Shown: one piece after another, positions 2,736 to 42,308 of the stretch
Layout of the letters: each line of letters starts with the position of its first letter
Numbering within the stretch: position 1 is the first letter of the stretch
DNA from: Candidatus Planktophila lacus
GTDB lineage: Bacteria > Actinomycetota > Actinomycetes > Nanopelagicales > Nanopelagicaceae
Reading direction: 5' to 3'
Assembly: GCF_002287925.1 (NCBI RefSeq)
Contig: NZ_CP016769.1
Location: forward strand, 1,116,001-1,180,000
Length of the DNA: 64,000 nt
The notes under the pieces: generated by a model
Seen by the model: the letters and a program-made list of their open reading frames with translations, nothing else
Database searches by the model: none
Told to the model about the DNA's origin: nothing
Translations under genes and position numbers: made by a program

Positions 2736-4450
2736 AACGCGTTCTAATTGCTAACCGTGGCGAAATCGCGCTACGCGTTATTCGCGCTTGCCGTGATCAT
2801 GGAATTGAGAGCGTCGCTGTTTACGCCGAGGAAGACCGCGATGCCCTACACGTTAAGAGCGCTGACTTTGCCTTCTCGCTAAATGGCGTTACTGCAACTC
2901 AAACTTATTTAGATATTTCAAAGATTATCGCTGCAGCAAAGTCTTCTGGAGCAGATGCGGTTCATCCAGGATATGGATTCCTTTCAGAGCGAGCAGATTT
3001 TGCACAAGCAGTTATTGACGCTGGATTGATTTGGATCGGCCCACCTCCTGCCGCGATTAGCGCGTTAGGTGACAAGGTTTCAGCGCGACGAATCGCTGCC
3101 AAAGCAGGAGCACCGCTAGTCGCCGGAACTAAAGATCCTGTGGCAGGTGCGGAAGAAGTCACCGCCTTTGCAAAAGAACATGGCTTACCTGTCGCAATTA
3201 AGGCAGCTTTCGGTGGTGGAGGTCGTGGATTAAAGGTTGCGCACACCATGGAAGAAATTCCTGAACTATTTGCATCTGCTGTTCGTGAGGCTATTGCTGG
3301 TTTCGGACGCGGCGAATGCTTTGTAGAACGCTACTTGGATAAGCCTCGTCACGTAGAAACCCAAGTCTTAGTTGATCAACATGGAAACGCAGTAGTTGTT
3401 AGTACGCGTGACTGTTCGCTGCAACGCCGCCATCAAAAGCTTGTAGAAGAAGCGCCCGCTCCATTCTTAACTGATGCGCAGAATGAAGAGCTCTACCGCT
3501 CAAGTAAAGCGATCATGAAAGAGGCTGGCTATGTGGGTGCCGGTACCTGCGAATTCTTAGTTGGCGCGGATGGAACTATCTCCTTCCTAGAGGTTAATAC
3601 GCGCCTGCAAGTCGAACACCCAGTCAGCGAAGAAGTAACTGGAATCGACTTGGTACGTGAACAATTTAGAATTGCGATGGGCGAGAAACTTGGTTTCACG
3701 GATCCAGAAATTCGTGGCCATTCTCTTGAATTTCGAATCAACGGCGAAGATCCAGGACGTTCATTCCTGCCAGCCCCAGGTCAAATAACACAATGGAATT
3801 TACCCTCTGGTCCTGGAGTACGCGTTGATGCGGGATTTAAGAAAGGCGACACAATCGGTGGCAACTTTGATTCACTTCTAGCGAAGTTGATCGTCACTGG
3901 CGCAACGCGTAAACAAGCCATCGAGAGAGCACGTCGCGCACTTGCAGAATTTGAAGTGGATGGTTTAGCAACAGCAATCCCATTCCATCGCGCGATTCTG
4001 GAAGATCCGGCATACACAGAAGAATTCAAGGTCTATACAAGTTATATTGAAAATGAATTTAAGAACGATATCCCGGCATTTTCCGCCACACCTATTCCTG
4101 TAACAACTAAGGTAGCGGCAGAACATTTAGTTGCTGAAGTAAATGGCAAACGCTTCGAGGTAAAACTGCATACGCCAGAACCTGTTGTTAAGCGCCATCG
4201 TGCTAAAGAATCAAAGGTAAGCGGTGCAGGTGGATCAGGTTTAGCAAGCCCAATGCAAGGAACAGTAGTAAAAGTTGCAGTTGAAGAGGGCGCTCTTGTT
4301 GAGATTGGTGACTTGGTTATTGTCTTAGAGGCGATGAAGATGGAGCAACCACTGCTTGCCCACAAAGCAGGCAAAATCGCTAATCTAAAAGCGGTTATTG
4401 GCGAAATTGTTTCAAGTGGCACAGTTTTGTGCGACATTCTTGATGCATAA
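2732..4450 (+). CDS. accA3: Acyl-CoA carboxylase alpha subunit (biotin carboxylase + BCCP)
   Basis: Carboxylates its own biotin with ATP and bicarbonate, then hands the group to the beta subunit encoded upstream. The 572 residues hold a biotin carboxylase N-domain ([18 protein letters not shown]), an ATP-grasp with [13 protein letters not shown] (glycine-rich loop near residue 160), the [16 protein letters not shown] catalytic stretch, a biotin carboxylase C-domain, and a C-terminal BCCP domain from about 500. The biotin-accepting lysine is K536 in EAMKM, 35 residues from the end as expected. It overlaps maf by four bases and ends the operon. Known AccA3/PccA proteins of actinobacteria serve several beta subunits. 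Confidence 0.95.
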
Positions 4451-4470
4451 TTTCCTTTCCTAACTCGCAA

Positions 4471-4505
4471 TTCACAAGTTGATTTAATCCAGTTACGCTG
4501 GGGCT
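4471..4505 (+). promoter_or_regulatory. Predicted promoter for the mutase-deoC operon
   Basis: TTCACA (4471-4476), a 17-base spacer, then TACGCT (4494-4499), which ends 6 bases before the ATG at 4506. There is no Shine-Dalgarno sequence, so a leaderless transcript is predicted. Seen in sequence; not tested. Confidence 0.45.
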
Positions 4506-6137
4506 ATGAACGCGCAGCTTTTGGCCGAAGTACAAGCCTGGATAGCCGATGATCCAGATCCAAAGACCGCAGCGGAGTTATCGAAACTTATTGAATCAGG
4601 CGACGAAACGACTTTAAGAAAGTATTTCGCAGGGTTTCTCCAATTCGGAACTGCAGGGCTGCGCGGACCAATCGGCCCAGGCCCTTCATCTATGAATCGC
4701 GCTGTTGTAGGGCGCACCGCTGCCGGTTTAGTTGCTTACATGAAAGAGCGCGGACTCAGCCGCGTGGTAATTGGACGCGATGCGCGTTACGGATCAGAAG
4801 ATTTCACAGAAGAATCTGCTCAGATATTTTCAGGTGCAGGATTTGAGGTATTTGTCCTGCCGCGACCACTTCCAACTCCAGTACTAGCTTTTGCTACCCA
4901 TGAACTTAACTGTGATCTCGGCGTTATGGTCACCGCTAGCCATAATCCACCGCAAGATAACGGCTACAAGGTTTATATCGGGCCAACTGCCGACGGTATT
5001 GAATACGCCGCATCACAAATCATCAATCCAACTGATGGCTTGATCGCAAAAGAGATTGATTTAGTTAACTCTCTCAAGGCTGTACCTAGAGGTAAATCAT
5101 GGACTGTCTTAAATGATGTGGTTGTAGATAAATACGTTGCACGTACAGCAAAACTTGCGCCACGACCTGGTTCTCTCAAAATTGTTTACACCGCAATGCA
5201 TGGTGTTGGTACTGAGACTGTAGAAAAGGTATTTGCTAAAGCGGGCTTTCCCAACTTGGTTTTAGTTAGTGAACAAGCAGAACCTGATCCAGATTTCCCA
5301 ACTGTGGCATTTCCAAACCCAGAAGAACCAGGTGCGATTGATTTAGCGCTAGCAAAAGCGCGCCAAGTTGGCGCCGATTTAGTTATCGCCAATGACCCGG
5401 ATGCCGATCGCTGCGCTGCTGCAGTAAATGGCCCAAGCGGTGGCTGGCGAATGCTGCGTGGTGATGAACTCGGCATAATCTTCGGAGAATGGATTGCGCG
5501 ATCGATGGTGCAAGATAAGACAAAGACCGGCGCCTTTGGTAATTCGATCGTCTCTTCATCGGCGCTGAGCAAGATTGCTGCTCACTATGTAATCGACTTT
5601 AAAGAGGTTTTAACCGGCTTTAAATGGCTCGCCAAGATCGAAGATCTCGCCTTTGGTTACGAAGAAGCGATCGGTTACTCAGTCGATTCTGAGACTGTTA
5701 ACGATAAGGACGGCATTTCTGCAGCACTTTTCTTAGCTCAAATTGCAACTGATCTAAACGCTGACGGAAAAACGCTCGTAGATCTATTAAATGAGGTTTG
5801 GGCTCGTCACGGTTTCCATGGCACTGAACAAATCTCAATTCGAGTTAGCGATATGTCCCGCATTACCGAACTTCTGGCGGGATTGCGTAAGAACCCTCCT
5901 GCAGAAATTGCAGGCCGTGCGGTATCGTCAATCGATGATTTGGCAGCGCCTAAAGATGGACTTCCCCCAACAGATGGGTTACGGATCTGGCTTGATGGAG
6001 GAATTCGCATCATTATCCGTCCGAGCGGAACTGAAGCAAAGATGAAGTGCTACATCGAGGTCATAACTAAAGATGAAAAGTCGGCAAACGATCTTTTGAA
6101 CCAATTGCGCCAACCACTTAAGGATTTTCTCGCATGA
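4506..6137 (+). CDS. pmmB: Phosphoglucomutase/phosphomannomutase family (possible phosphopentomutase)
   Basis: A 543-residue alpha-D-phosphohexomutase: TASHNP (phosphoserine loop near residue 150), NDPDADRCAA (metal-binding DPDADR near 300), a GYEEAIGYSVD sugar-binding loop and the C-terminal phosphate loop RPSGTEAKMKCY. Members of this family lie in nucleoside-catabolism clusters of actinobacteria next to deoC, add, deoA and cdd, and there a phosphopentomutase role (ribose or deoxyribose 1-phosphate to 5-phosphate) is expected because no deoB-type gene is present. That role is inferred from context; sequence alone supports only a phosphosugar mutase. The stop overlaps the deoC start by four bases, which argues for a joint function. 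Confidence 0.85.
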   Translation: MNAQLLAEVQAWIADDPDPKTAAELSKLIESGDETTLRKYFAGFLQFGTAGLRGPIGPGPSSMNRAVVGRTAAGLVAYMKERGLSRVVIGRDARYGSEDFTEESAQIFSGAGFEVFVLPRPLPTPVLAFATHELNCDLGVMVTASHNPPQDNGYKVYIGPTADGIEYAASQIINPTDGLIAKEIDLVNSLKAVPRGKSWTVLNDVVVDKYVARTAKLAPRPGSLKIVYTAMHGVGTETVEKVFAKAGFPNLVLVSEQAEPDPDFPTVAFPNPEEPGAIDLALAKARQVGADLVIANDPDADRCAAAVNGPSGGWRMLRGDELGIIFGEWIARSMVQDKTKTGAFGNSIVSSSALSKIAAHYVIDFKEVLTGFKWLAKIEDLAFGYEEAIGYSVDSETVNDKDGISAALFLAQIATDLNADGKTLVDLLNEVWARHGFHGTEQISIRVSDMSRITELLAGLRKNPPAEIAGRAVSSIDDLAAPKDGLPPTDGLRIWLDGGIRIIIRPSGTEAKMKCYIEVITKDEKSANDLLNQLRQPLKDFLA

Positions 6138-37081: not shown

Positions 37082-38635
37082 TCACTCCCACTCGATCGTT
37101 CCAGGTGGCTTACTCGTAACATCCAACACAACTCTGTTTACTTCGCGAACCTCATTGGTGATTCTTGTAGAAATCTTCTCTAGAGTTTCGTAAGGCACGC
37201 GCGACCAGTCTGCGGTCATGGCATCTTCACTTGATACCGGACGCAAAACTATTGGGTGGCCATAAGTACGGCCATCGCCTTGCACACCAACGCTACGTAC
37301 ATCAGCCAACAGAACGACCGGGCATTGCCAGATCTGACGATCAAGTCCTGCCGCCTTTAACTCTTCGCGCGCAATTAAATCTGCATGGCGCAGAATTTCC
37401 AGGCGATCTTGCGTTACTTCACCGATGATGCGAATACCGAGCCCTGGACCTGGGAATGGTTGGCGCCAAACGATTTCTTCAGGAAGACCGAGTTCTAAAC
37501 CGACCTGACGAACTTCATCTTTAAATAAAGTACGAAGTGGTTCGACAAGAGTGAACTTCAAATCATCTGGAAGACCACCAACATTGTGGTGTGACTTAAT
37601 GTTTGCAGTACCTGTACCGCCGCCTGATTCAACGACATCTGGGTAAAGGGTGCCCTGCACTAAGAATTCAACATCTCCCCCAGCAGCAATGTCGCGCGCT
37701 GCCTTTTCGAAGGAACGAATAAATTCACGGCCAATAATCTTGCGCTTGGTCTCAGGATCAGTAACTCCCGCAAGAGCGTTTAAGAATTGATCAACCGCAT
37801 CAACCACAACTAGATCAATACCGGTTGCAGCAACAAAGTCACGCTGTACTTGTTCGGATTCGCCGCTGCGCAACAAGCCGTGGTCTACGAATACACAAGT
37901 TAGCTGAGCACCTACTGCGCGCTGCACGATTGCGGCAGCAACTGCTGAATCAACGCCACCTGAAAGTCCGCAGATAACGCGCTTGCTGCCAATTAGCGTC
38001 TTCGCTTTAGCAACTTCATTCTCGGCAATGTTTCCGGTTGTCCAGTTTGGTGTGCAACCGGCGATATTAATCAACCAATTTTTCAGGATTGCTTGGCCGT
38101 GTTCAGAATGTAGAACTTCGGGGTGGAACTGAACGCCGGCAATCTTTCCGCTGGCATCTTCGAAAGCGGCAATAGGAGTATCTGCTGTTACTGCACAGAT
38201 AGTAAAACCTGCAGGTGCTTGAGTCACCGCATCGCCGTGCGACATCCAAACTCTCTGTGACGCAGGTAGCGTTGCAAAGATCTTAGAGCTTACTTCCGCT
38301 TTAATTTCAGTGCGGCCGAATTCTGATTTACCTGTCTGGCTTACAACGCCACCAAGAGCTGCGGCCATCGCTTGGAAACCATAACAAATTCCGAATACTG
38401 GAATACCGAGTTTGAGAATTTCAGCATCAAACTTTGGTGCGCGATCTGCATAAACACTTGAAGGCCCGCCCGATAGAACAATTGCAGATGGCGCCTTGGC
38501 CGAAACTTCAGCAGCGGTGATATGTGATGGAACGATCTCAGAAAATACATTTGCTTCGCGAACGCGGCGTGCGATCAGTTGTGCATATTGCGCACCGAAA
38601 TCAACGACCAGTACGCCGTTCTCCGAATTACTCAT
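37082..38635 (-). CDS. guaA: GMP synthase (glutamine-hydrolysing)
   Basis: Converts XMP to GMP. The 517 residues combine a class I glutamine amidotransferase ([20 protein letters not shown], nucleophile cysteine in [21 protein letters not shown] triad His/Glu), an ATP-pyrophosphatase domain ([15 protein letters not shown]) and the C-terminal dimerisation domain ending [11 protein letters not shown]. It abuts guaB3 without a gap, with the IMP dehydrogenase gene next, so the two steps from IMP to GMP lie together. Confidence 0.96.
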
Positions 38636-39745
38636 TTACGCCCCGTGAATGATTACTTCTACGCGCTGGAATGACTTAACATCTGAATAACCAGAGGTTG
38701 CCATTGCGCGGCGAAGTGCGCCAAATAGGTTCATTGAGCCATCAGATGTATGTGATGGTCCGTTAAGAATTTCTTCAAGTGTGCCAACGGTGCCAACATT
38801 TACGCGCTCACCGCGTGGAAGTTCTTGGTGATGTGCTTCAGATCCCCAGTGCCAGCCAAGTCCTGGCGCCTGTGTTGCCTTTGCAAGTGGAGAGCCCATC
38901 ATTACCGCATCTGCGCCAACGGCAATTGCCTTTGCGATATCACCAGAGCGACCAACTGAACCGTCTGCAATAACGTGAACATATCGTCCACCTGATTCAT
39001 CTAAGTATTCACGGCGCGCTGCAGCTACTTCAGCAACAGCAGATGCCATTGGAACTTCGATACCTAAAACTTTGCGAGTTGTGTGTGCAGCACCGCCACC
39101 GAAACCAACTAGAACACCAGCTGCTCCTGCGCGCATCAAGTGCAGCGCACCTGTTGCAGTAGCGACTCCACCAACAATTACCGGCACATCTAGTTCATAG
39201 ATGAATTTCTTGAGGTTAAGAGATGAATCATCATGTCCAACATGTTCTGCAGAAACTGTTGTTCCACGAATTACGAAGATATCTACGCCAGCATCGATAA
39301 CTGCCTTGTGAAGTTCTGCGGTGCGCTGTGGGGAAAGTGATGCCGCAACTGTGACACCAGAATCACGAATTGTTTTGATGCGCTCTTTGATTAACTCTGG
39401 GCGAATCGGTGCGCTGTAAATTTCTTGCATACGTCGAGTTGCATGCTTATCTGGCATCGATGCGATTTCACCGAGCGGAATGCGGGGATCGTCATAACGA
39501 GTCCAAAGACCTTCTAGGTTCAGAACTCCGAGTCCACCAAGTCTTCCAATTTCAATTGCTGTTTCAGGAGAAACAACAGAGTCCATTGGCGCGGCCATCA
39601 TTGGAATATCAAATTTATAAGCATCGATCTGCCACGCAGTTGAAACATCTTCGGGGTTTCGAGTACGACGGCTTGGAACGATGGCGATATCGTCAAATGA
39701 GTAAGCCTGGCGGGCACGTTTTCCTGGTGCGATCTCGATATCCAT
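38636..39745 (-). CDS. guaB3: GuaB3-family IMP dehydrogenase-related protein
   Basis: A 369-residue IMPDH/GMP reductase barrel without CBS domains, of the GuaB3 group that actinobacteria keep beside guaB. The TIM-barrel phosphate loop VHVIADGSVGRSGDIAKAIAVGADAVMMGSPLA is clear. The position of the IMPDH catalytic cysteine loop reads FGGGAAHTTRKVLG, with histidine (H221) where GuaB has cysteine, so ordinary IMP oxidation is unlikely from this sequence. The function of GuaB3 proteins is not settled. It lies between guaB and guaA, with a ribosome-binding site AAGGAAGG. Confidence 0.88.
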   Translation of the reverse strand: MDIEIAPGKRARQAYSFDDIAIVPSRRTRNPEDVSTAWQIDAYKFDIPMMAAPMDSVVSPETAIEIGRLGGLGVLNLEGLWTRYDDPRIPLGEIASMPDKHATRRMQEIYSAPIRPELIKERIKTIRDSGVTVAASLSPQRTAELHKAVIDAGVDIFVIRGTTVSAEHVGHDDSSLNLKKFIYELDVPVIVGGVATATGALHLMRAGAAGVLVGFGGGAAHTTRKVLGIEVPMASAVAEVAAARREYLDESGGRYVHVIADGSVGRSGDIAKAIAVGADAVMMGSPLAKATQAPGLGWHWGSEAHHQELPRGERVNVGTVGTLEEILNGPSHTSDGSMNLFGALRRAMATSGYSDVKSFQRVEVIIHGA

Positions 39746-39756
39746 AGCGGCCTTCC

Positions 39757-40899
<1,143 letters not shown>

Positions 40900-40916
40900 C
40901 TAGTCTAACTTGAGTT

Positions 40917-41792
40917 TTAGGCTCCTAAAGCCTGCTTAATCTGCGCGCAGGCTAGCGATAAATCATCAGCAAATGCCACATCGCCGCATTGATCGCGATC
41001 CCATCCCGGACCGCCCAAGATAAAGCGGGGCGCTGGGCGGATTGCAGGGATATCACGGAAGAATTTTGGGTCACCATTTTTTGAAAGTTGTGCCCAAAGG
41101 AAAACAGCAGGTGGGGCGCTGCGGGTGACAACATTTGATAACGCCTCTAGCGGGGTGCGTGCACCTAAGAAATGGCAATCAACTTTCGCTTCAGCAAGGG
41201 CGGCATGAAGTGCATGCAACGCTAAGCAGTGAAGTTCTTCACCTACGGATGCCAATAAAACTGGACGAGAATTTAGCGGCGTCTTTAGCTGCTTTGAACG
41301 TTCGCGCAGAATTGCAGTAATGGTTTCAGAGAGTAAATGTTCGACTTCAATTCCGGTGCCTGTTTCTTGCCAGGCATCTCCGACTATTACTAATACGGGA
41401 ACAATGACTTCCTGCCAACTATCAATAACCCCATATTTTTCAATATCTTTACGCAAGATACTTTCTACAAAATTTCGATCGAGTGAATTGGCTGCTTTGA
41501 CAATTGCAGCGACAACATCTTCGCGAACTTCAAAGGTCTTTAAAATCTTCTCTACTTTGACTTCACCCTTATGTGCCAGTGCTTGTTCGGCAGCTTCAGC
41601 GGGTGCAACGCCTGCGGTGATTAACCGGCGCATCAGAGTTAACTTGGCGAGATCGCTGGCGCAATATCTGCGGTGTTCGCCGGCTTCGTGGCTCGAGGGC
41701 CCCAGGCCATAACGGCGAGCCCAGGTCCGCAGAGTTGCTGGGGCTACGCCGATTTGGCGGGCAACGGCTGCAACCGTCAGGAGCTCTTCCAT
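40917..41792 (-). CDS. MerR-family regulator with cobalamin-binding domain (CarH/LitR-like)
   Basis: A 291-residue repressor-type protein. Residues 1-75 are a MerR helix-turn-helix (LTVAAVARQIGVAPATLRTWARRYGL, HRRY). A four-helix bundle follows, then a Rossmann-like B12-binding domain (VLLASVGEELHCLALHALHAAL, CHFLGARTPLEAL). Known light-sensing residues of Thermus CarH have counterparts at nearly identical spacing: W141, E151, H152 and H188 here against W131, E141, H142 and H177. The GExH lower-ligand loop has one extra residue (GEELH). The frame extends upstream to 41837, but MEELLTV is the family start. It is divergent from whiB3. A light- or B12-dependent role is inferred. Confidence 0.8.
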   Translation of the reverse strand: MEELLTVAAVARQIGVAPATLRTWARRYGLGPSSHEAGEHRRYCASDLAKLTLMRRLITAGVAPAEAAEQALAHKGEVKVEKILKTFEVREDVVAAIVKAANSLDRNFVESILRKDIEKYGVIDSWQEVIVPVLVIVGDAWQETGTGIEVEHLLSETITAILRERSKQLKTPLNSRPVLLASVGEELHCLALHALHAALAEAKVDCHFLGARTPLEALSNVVTRSAPPAVFLWAQLSKNGDPKFFRDIPAIRPAPRFILGGPGWDRDQCGDVAFADDLSLACAQIKQALGA

Positions 41793-41865
41793 GCGCCTAT
41801 GGTGGCGTGAACTGGCCCACCTCACCACTTGAAACACGCTCGCACCGTGACGAAACGAACAACTT

Positions 41866-41940
41866 TTGACCCGATAGGTACTTGAACAACCTATGGCGCG
41901 GTTGTATGGTTGGGCTAATCAACAAGGCAAGGAGAAAAAC
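41866..41940 (+). promoter_or_regulatory. whiB3 promoter with overlapping dyad and ribosome-binding site
   Basis: TTGAAC (41882-41887), 17 bases, TATGGT (41905-41910) is a well-spaced promoter. An exact inverted repeat, ATAGGT-N9-ACCTAT (41874-41894), covers the -35 and is a candidate operator for the divergent MerR-type regulator. A second -35-like TTGACC lies at 41866-41871. The ribosome-binding site AAGGAG is at about 41928-41933, before the ATG at 41941. Confidence 0.55.
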
Positions 41941-42240
41941 ATGGCTGAACTAACACGTCTTCCGCTTCCAATCGCAGATCATTGGGAATGGCAGTACGAA
42001 GGCGCCTGTCGCGAACTTCCTGCTGAGATGTTCTTTCATCCAGATGGGGAACGCGGCCCACGTCGTCGCAATCGCGAGAATGCAGCGAAGGCTGTCTGCG
42101 CAACATGCCCAGTAATCCAGGCCTGCCGCGCACATGCGCTAGCAGTGCAAGAGCCATACGGAATCTGGGGCGGTTTATCCGAAGATGATCGCGCAGTATT
42201 GCTTGGCAAAGAAGAGCCAACAATTTACGAAGCATCATAA
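41941..42240 (+). CDS. whiB3: WhiB-family iron-sulfur regulator, WhiB3-like
   Basis: A 99-residue transcription factor that binds a 4Fe-4S cluster through C23, C53, C56 and C62 (C-x29-C-x2-C-x5-C). The sequence WEWQYEGACRE, FFHPDGERG, CPVIQACRAHAL and EPYGIWGGLSEDDR matches the WhiB3 subgroup rather than WhiB1 or WhiB2. WhiB3 proteins respond to redox state or nitric oxide and interact with the principal sigma factor. An upstream ATG at 41893 would give 16 extra residues, but the AAGGAG before 41941 decides the start. It is divergent from a MerR/B12 regulator and convergent with groEL. Confidence 0.93.
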   Translation: MAELTRLPLPIADHWEWQYEGACRELPAEMFFHPDGERGPRRRNRENAAKAVCATCPVIQACRAHALAVQEPYGIWGGLSEDDRAVLLGKEEPTIYEAS

Positions 42241-42251
42241 GAAATTAAATA

Positions 42252-42286
42252 AAAATCCCCCGCACTCAATGAGTACGGGGGATTTT
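42252..42286. terminator. Bidirectional terminator, whiB3 / groEL
   Basis: Eleven-base arms AAAATCCCCCG (42252-42262) and CGGGGGATTTT (42276-42286), with an inner ACTC/GAGT stem in the loop. T-rich on both exits, so it serves both convergent genes. Confidence 0.9.
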
Positions 42287-42308
42287 CTATTTACAAATTA
42301 GTGGCTAC

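Follow-up and report, generated by a model that had tools for sequence, protein, structure and literature searches.

A CarH/LitR-like regulator with a B12-binding domain, divergent from whiB3 in Candidatus Planktophila lacus and its putative operator in the whiB3 promoter

Introduction

WhiB3-type regulators have been studied mainly for the sensing of O2, NO, and redox state, and what acts on whiB3 transcription outside mycobacteria is, to our knowledge, poorly defined. In Candidatus Planktophila lacus, whose 1.46-Mb genome lies on a single contig and is closest, among public genomes, to those of freshwater actinobacteria (Candidatus Planktophila and IMCC26103 among them), whiB3 is divergent from a gene (merR) for a MerR-type protein with a B12-binding domain, hereafter referred to as the MerR-B12 protein. 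Does this protein control whiB3, and, if so, through which cofactor and in response to which signal? A literature search that combined WhiB with CarH, cobalamin, or light, and whiB3 with MerR, groEL, or guaB, retrieved no report of the pair among the papers listed, and we know of no report that whiB3 is controlled by a B12-type MerR protein. The locus was examined within a stretch of 64,000 nucleotides (the window), and its features are listed in Table 1.

Table 1 Features in and around the merR-whiB3 intergenic region (positions are those of the window)
Feature	Position	Strand	Evidence
merR: MerR-type, B12-binding (LitR/CarH-like) regulator, 291 aa	40917-41792	-	ORF, Pfam, phmmer, fold search
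MerR winged-helix DNA-binding domain, residues 6-68; recognition helix RTWARRY	41589-41777	-	Pfam MerR_1, homologue alignment
Trp141, counterpart of CarH Trp131	41370-41372	-	104/111 homologues
Gln142, at the position of His132 in T. thermophilus CarH	41367-41369	-	His in 1/111 homologues
Glu151-His152, counterpart of CarH Glu141-His142	41337-41342	-	E in 111/111, H in 109/111
His188, counterpart of the lower cobalt ligand His177 of CarH	41229-41231	-	111/111
Trp233, replacing Ser of the SxT/V B12 motif, family-specific	41094-41096	-	W in 109/111
Second conserved intergenic element CTCACCACTTGAAA, between operator and merR	41821-41834		Same-order alignment
whiB3 promoter: -35 TTGAAC (41882-41887), 17-bp spacer, -10 TATGGT (41905-41910)	41882-41910	+	Class-wide conservation
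Putative MerR-B12 operator: inverted repeat ACAACC-N8-GGTTGT in the promoter spacer	41886-41905	+	Comparative
whiB3 ribosome-binding site AGGAG	41930-41934	+	Sequence
whiB3: WhiB3-type iron-sulfur regulator, 99 aa	41941-42240	+	Pfam, phmmer
Terminator-like hairpin between convergent whiB3 and groEL	42251-42287		1 found, 0.5 expected

Conservation of the gene pair

The gene order guaA-guaB3-guaB-merR/whiB3-groEL-groES-tsaD recurs across the whole taxonomic order, and several further families of the class share it. Among 151 genomes of the same taxonomic order, 116 carry both genes, 24 carry neither, 8 carry whiB3 only, and 3 carry merR only. Two of the merR-only genomes have truncated merR copies, and the third (L128) has a damaged whiB3: in its region 3656-4715, merR is intact, whiB3 is internally shortened (61 of the 99 codons could be aligned), and the intergenic operator region is 7 bp long. 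Since draft assemblies can drop adjacent genes together, most of the argument for co-retention is carried by complete genomes; those of one genus (g3) are included among the 24 genomes that lack both genes. On this comparative evidence, the merR-whiB3 locus is old.

The genes merR, guaB, guaB3, and guaA lie on one strand (38635-41792) with gaps of 44, 11, and 0 bp, and, given this close spacing, the regulator may be co-transcribed with the GMP synthesis genes. A second MerR-B12 regulator was found in a few other Nanopelagicales (L144, 4733-5650; L143, 5159-6037) and was not found in the genome of the window. The copy in L144 has the canonical GxxW, EH, GxxH, and GGG features, and fasciclin-like secreted proteins are encoded among the neighbours of the second gene in both cases.

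The two proteins

The whiB3 product matched the Pfam family Whib (E 2e-24) and was closest to M. tuberculosis WhiB3 (8cwr; phmmer, E 1.4e-33), so that the original prediction of a WhiB3-like neighbour holds. The four Cys ligands and the GxWGG turn are present, and WhiB3 is the best match among the Wbl proteins (E 1e-33 vs. E 8e-13 for WhiB1). With M. tuberculosis WhiB3/WhiD (8cwr), the product shares, besides the four Cys, the segments FFHPDGERG and YGIWGG.

For the MerR-B12 protein, Pfam reported MerR_1 (E 1e-11), B12-binding_2 (E 1.5e-7), and B12-binding (E 1.4e-5), and the B12 part consists of a four-helix region (residues 96-163) and a Rossmann region (178-264). Pfam, the AF2 model, and the fold search thus agree on the arrangement of LitR/CarH proteins, in which a two-part cobalamin-binding domain comes after the MerR domain. 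Among proteins of solved structure, CarH/LitR of T. thermophilus is closest (phmmer, E 7.5e-18 and 9.2e-18; PDB 5c8d, 5c8e, and the 8c31 series), and in it the order of MerR HTH, four-helix bundle, and Rossmann B12 domain is the same; the alignment with T. thermophilus CarH extends over the full length (E about 1e-17; profile E 4e-29). The structure prediction that had been proposed as a check gave a CarH-like fold: in the AF2 model (mean pLDDT 87), which backs the fold only, Foldseek placed the dark state of CarH first (E 5e-17), and VIA-align 2 gave Z 21 for photocobilins and Z 20 for CarH. The AppA SCHIC domain was also found as a structural neighbour (Z 18). The assignment to CarH/LitR-like MerR proteins, as originally made, is therefore backed by domain, sequence, and fold searches. 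In the recognition helix, T20, R22, W24, R27, and Y28 are each conserved in all 111 homologues examined (mostly from Actinomycetes, and used for all residue counts below), and the RxWxRRY pattern is shared with T. thermophilus CarH.

The cofactor pocket

In CarH, Trp131 stacks on the adenosyl group, and His132 is the light-state ligand. The original prediction had matched W141, E151, H152, and H188 of the MerR-B12 protein to W131, E141, H142, and H177 of CarH, and the alignments agree with it. The Wx9EH motif, which contacts the adenosyl group, is represented by W141-x9-E151-H152 with the same spacing as in CarH; the lower-ligand His in D/ExH is represented by E186-L-H188; and GxxxP is shared as well. 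Judged from the homologues, this match is beyond chance: E151 and H188 are present in 111/111, H152 in 109/111, and W141 in 104/111. In two closely related homologues (L066 and L096), Arg replaces the His of the near-invariant EH pair.

An additional residue in the GEELH loop had been taken to leave cobalamin binding in doubt. This insertion was an alignment slip: the loops PVLLASVGEELH and PVLVTTPPGERH are 12 residues each and align without a gap, and the one-residue difference in the 152-188 interval sits in the linker ahead of the loop. As the loop length is unchanged, the doubt on this ground is unfounded; other changes in the pocket, on the other hand, leave the cobalamin question standing.

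Three departures from the CarH pocket were found family-wide. One is that no His follows the Trp (Gln in place of His132); the Trp is missing in several carotenoid-linked homologues. Another is that the Gly of GxxH (Gly174 in T. thermophilus CarH) is replaced by Glu185, Gly being found in 5 of the 111 homologues. The last is that the Ser of SxT/V, which is kept in CarH and CtMerR, is Trp in the MerR-B12 family, and its replacement in 109 of the 111 homologues points to a remodelled nucleotide-tail pocket. Accordingly, the strict form of the complete B12 motif D/ExHx2G/Px41SxT/Vx22-27GG (PMC9304148) was not found in the MerR-B12 protein: it has ExH, GG, and the expected spacings, but Ala191 stands at the G/P position and Trp233 at that of Ser. 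Similarly, three of the four parts of the light-responsive signature GxxW/EH/GxxH/GxxxP (PMC11796333) were found, and at the place of GxxH the sequence is E185-E-L-H188. Judged by sequence, the pocket thus departs from the CarH one on the lower side of the corrin and at the His132 switch.

Nevertheless, the protein likely binds a cobalamin whose upper ligand is an adenosyl group (AdoCbl), because E151 and H188 are invariant in the 111 homologues and the genome carries genes for handling AdoCbl. These genes encode a PduO-type adenosyltransferase, the AdoCbl-dependent NrdJ, and MetH, and by this gene content the genome is able to make and use AdoCbl.

Light, B12 supply, or another cofactor

Genes for a rhodopsin and phytoene synthase are present in the genome. 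Among the homologues of the MerR-B12 protein, one (L115) adjoins a photolyase gene and is divergent from the gene for an ECF sigma factor, and others adjoin genes for phytoene desaturase (L112, L114, and L121) or IPP isomerase (L119); in the tree, these photolyase- and carotenoid-linked homologues nest, with moderate support, among the whiB3-linked members. The gene context makes it very likely that the L115 homologue is Streptomyces LitR, and its closeness to LitR of S. coelicolor is likewise read from this context. It shares with the MerR-B12 protein the Trp at the Ser position and a replaced GxxH (D-E-Q-H in L115). In Streptomyces, LitR senses light through B12 and responds to added B12; it acts as a repressor in the dark and as an activator in the light, and in the litR-litS switch it controls litS and then carotenoid genes (PMC12705666). 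Family membership and the homologues in carotenoid and photolyase loci make light sensing by the MerR-B12 protein plausible.

One may suppose instead that the MerR-B12 protein reports the supply of coenzyme B12 through AdoCbl, with whiB3 under control when AdoCbl is bound and control lost when it is absent, and that light sensitivity is incidental. The order has been reported to depend on external B12 (PMC7527133), and AdoCbl is used for NrdJ. Moreover, His132 is required in T. thermophilus CarH for monomer formation and the light-state ligand switch (PMC10442372), and as this His is missing, a light-driven ligand switch of the CarH style cannot operate. However, His132 is not a prerequisite for a light response elsewhere: CtMerR of Chloracidobacterium thermophilum (8jbs/8jbt) and photocobilins (8j2w and 8j2y) are AdoCbl light sensors (structural Z 20-21 to our model) that have Arg (CtMerR), Gln (SasPcob), or Tyr (AbDPcob) at this position, and CtMerR and SasPcob respond to light (PMC11796333). 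They keep GxxH, unlike the MerR-B12 protein, and the photocobilins further differ from it by carrying a biliverdin domain and lacking the MerR DNA-binding domain. In addition, W141 and the EH pair, which give CarH its specificity for the light-labile AdoCbl, are strongly conserved, and homologues sit with photolyase and carotenoid genes. We regard a pure report of B12 supply as unlikely.

Alternatively, the B12 fold may have come to serve a different tetrapyrrole, for instance heme, or to hold no cofactor, with His188 as a heme ligand or a structural residue, and the protein would then sense redox, gas, or a partner protein. That conservation of the adenosyl-capping residues W141 and E151 would lack a reason makes such an adaptation quite improbable, as do two further points: heme biosynthesis is lacking in the order, as implied by PMC7527133, and a response to added B12 is reported for Streptomyces LitR (PMC12705666), a likely member of the same family. 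The idea draws on the replacement of Ser by Trp in SxT/V (109/111) together with the Trp of GGPGW (108/111), on the structural closeness of the AppA SCHIC domain, whose name refers to heme instead of cobalamin, and on the precedents of CarA, functional without B12, and class III LitR with another chromophore (PMC9304148, PMC9758184, and PMC6739363).

The whiB3 promoter and the putative operator

In the aligned intergenic regions, one block, TTGAACAACcTATGnnnCGrTTGTA (41882-41906), is strongly conserved class-wide, and in all 87 loci having this block a -10 of the form TAnnnT stands 17 or 18 bp from the -35. A simple sigma-70 scan did not report the whiB3 promoter because the -10 is TATGGT; the promoter call is based on conservation. 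The longest ORF had implied a start of whiB3 at 41893, which is inside the promoter; the start at 41941 is preceded by AGGAG and agrees with the relatives. The TATG within the promoter was also considered as a start codon and rejected, since its ATG is absent in 17 of the 87 loci and out of frame in 32. The element CTCACCACTTGAAA may be part of the merR promoter.

The operator of T. thermophilus CarH consists of tandem 11-bp repeats, whereas the conserved architecture here is a single inverted repeat: tandem TnnACA 11-bp repeats over the -35 or -10 (PMC9304148) were not found upstream of whiB3, where one TnnACA (41883-41888) overlaps the -35. The target is also different, namely whiB3 here and carotenoid genes for CarH. 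Furthermore, the score against the NCBI CarH equivalog NF052513 was 98.6 bits, below the cut-off of 400. Since the complete B12 motif, GxxH, the tandem-repeat operator, and a score above the equivalog cut-off are all lacking, the MerR-B12 protein is a LitR/CarH-like variant from which the name CarH is withheld.

The occurrence of the operator was examined in relation to merR. In a leave-one-out motif scan, the 93 distinct merR-whiB3 intergenic regions scored a median of 41 bits. There are 8 genomes in which whiB3 is kept and merR is cleanly lost; in 7 of these, the DNA upstream of whiB3 (up to 230 bp) was readable, and the best scores ranged from -40 to -0.0 bits, none above 0. Six of the 7 lie inside the range of shuffled DNA, and the remaining one (L130; -0.0 bits) lies above the shuffled maximum of -14 and about 41 bits under the median of the real sites. 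The eighth genome (L132) has 48 bp upstream of whiB3 on its contig and is given little weight. On the tree of the neighbouring genes, about four changes of merR state were counted, at least three of which are forced by well-supported branches.

With up to 3 mismatches allowed, the operator pattern has a single match in the whole genome, at whiB3, and mostly one in congeners; the reversed pattern gave no matches over 41 congeners, and by chance none is expected in the window. A wide regulon including rhodopsin and carotenoid genes was considered and rejected: these gene types are present in the genome, and the pattern occurs at whiB3 alone. At the carotenoid-linked homologues, an operator of the whiB3 type was not found (one weak, non-matching hit at L119), and the upstream DNA of L115 is likewise without it. 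In two genomes of one other family (L108 and L110), the merR-whiB3 pair is kept and the palindromes GAACTTGTTC and TGAACAAGTT replace the conserved element, which suggests operator drift.

The single operator in the genome and the loss of the element at all 7 readable whiB3 promoters that have lost merR indicate that the MerR-B12 protein is most likely a dedicated whiB3 regulator with a CarH/LitR-like mechanism. That the element belongs to another regulator, the MerR-B12 protein acting elsewhere, is very improbable: the target is assigned by comparative genomics and carotenoid-linked homologues lack the element, but it is lost with merR across at least three forced changes of merR state, has the form and position usual for MerR-family sites, and occurs once in the genome, adjoining merR. 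The comparative data thus give good support to the gene pair, the fold family, the operator as the target of the MerR-B12 protein, and its single-site nature.

Proposed mechanism and significance

Taken together, we consider it probable that this LitR/CarH-family factor binds the whiB3 promoter and switches whiB3 according to the state of its bound cobalamin, most likely AdoCbl. The cobalamin is likely held by His188, and the adenosyl group capped by W141/E151. In the dark, the AdoCbl form would occupy the inverted repeat between -35 and -10 and thereby keep RNA polymerase from the promoter. Cleavage of the Co-C bond by light, or loss of the cofactor, would then alter this occupancy and allow whiB3 transcription, so that an Fe-S regulator responsive to redox state and NO would be more abundant at times of expected photo-oxidative stress. 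An inverted repeat in the promoter spacer is the usual site of MerR-family proteins, and classical MerR activation proceeds by twisting of the spacer; as a 17-bp spacer is the optimum for RNA polymerase to begin with, we favour repression by occupancy over such activation. Dark repression may be followed in the light by relief or, by analogy with Streptomyces LitR, by a switch to activation.

The original prediction that light and redox signals meet at one locus stands in part: the link between the regulator and WhiB3 gained support from the operator evidence, and the contribution of light is drawn from the family and the loci of the homologues. Tentatively, for the Actinomycetes as a whole, an AdoCbl photoreceptor with a remodelled pocket could be a single-site whiB3 switch, from whose older whiB3-linked lineage the carotenoid LitR proteins would be offshoots; we hold this broader picture to be possible, a little short of an even chance.

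The present analysis offers, at a mapped and conserved whiB3 promoter, a concrete input that can be tested: cobalamin, and probably light. The conservation spans streamlined freshwater plankton as well as Actinomycetes with large genomes. The analysis also extends the B12 photoreceptor-like regulators past the published signature, which would miss most of the MerR-B12 family. A redox regulator may have its level set directly by light or by B12 status, and, if an AdoCbl photoreceptor is indeed the whiB3 switch, light would be wired directly into Fe-S redox control.
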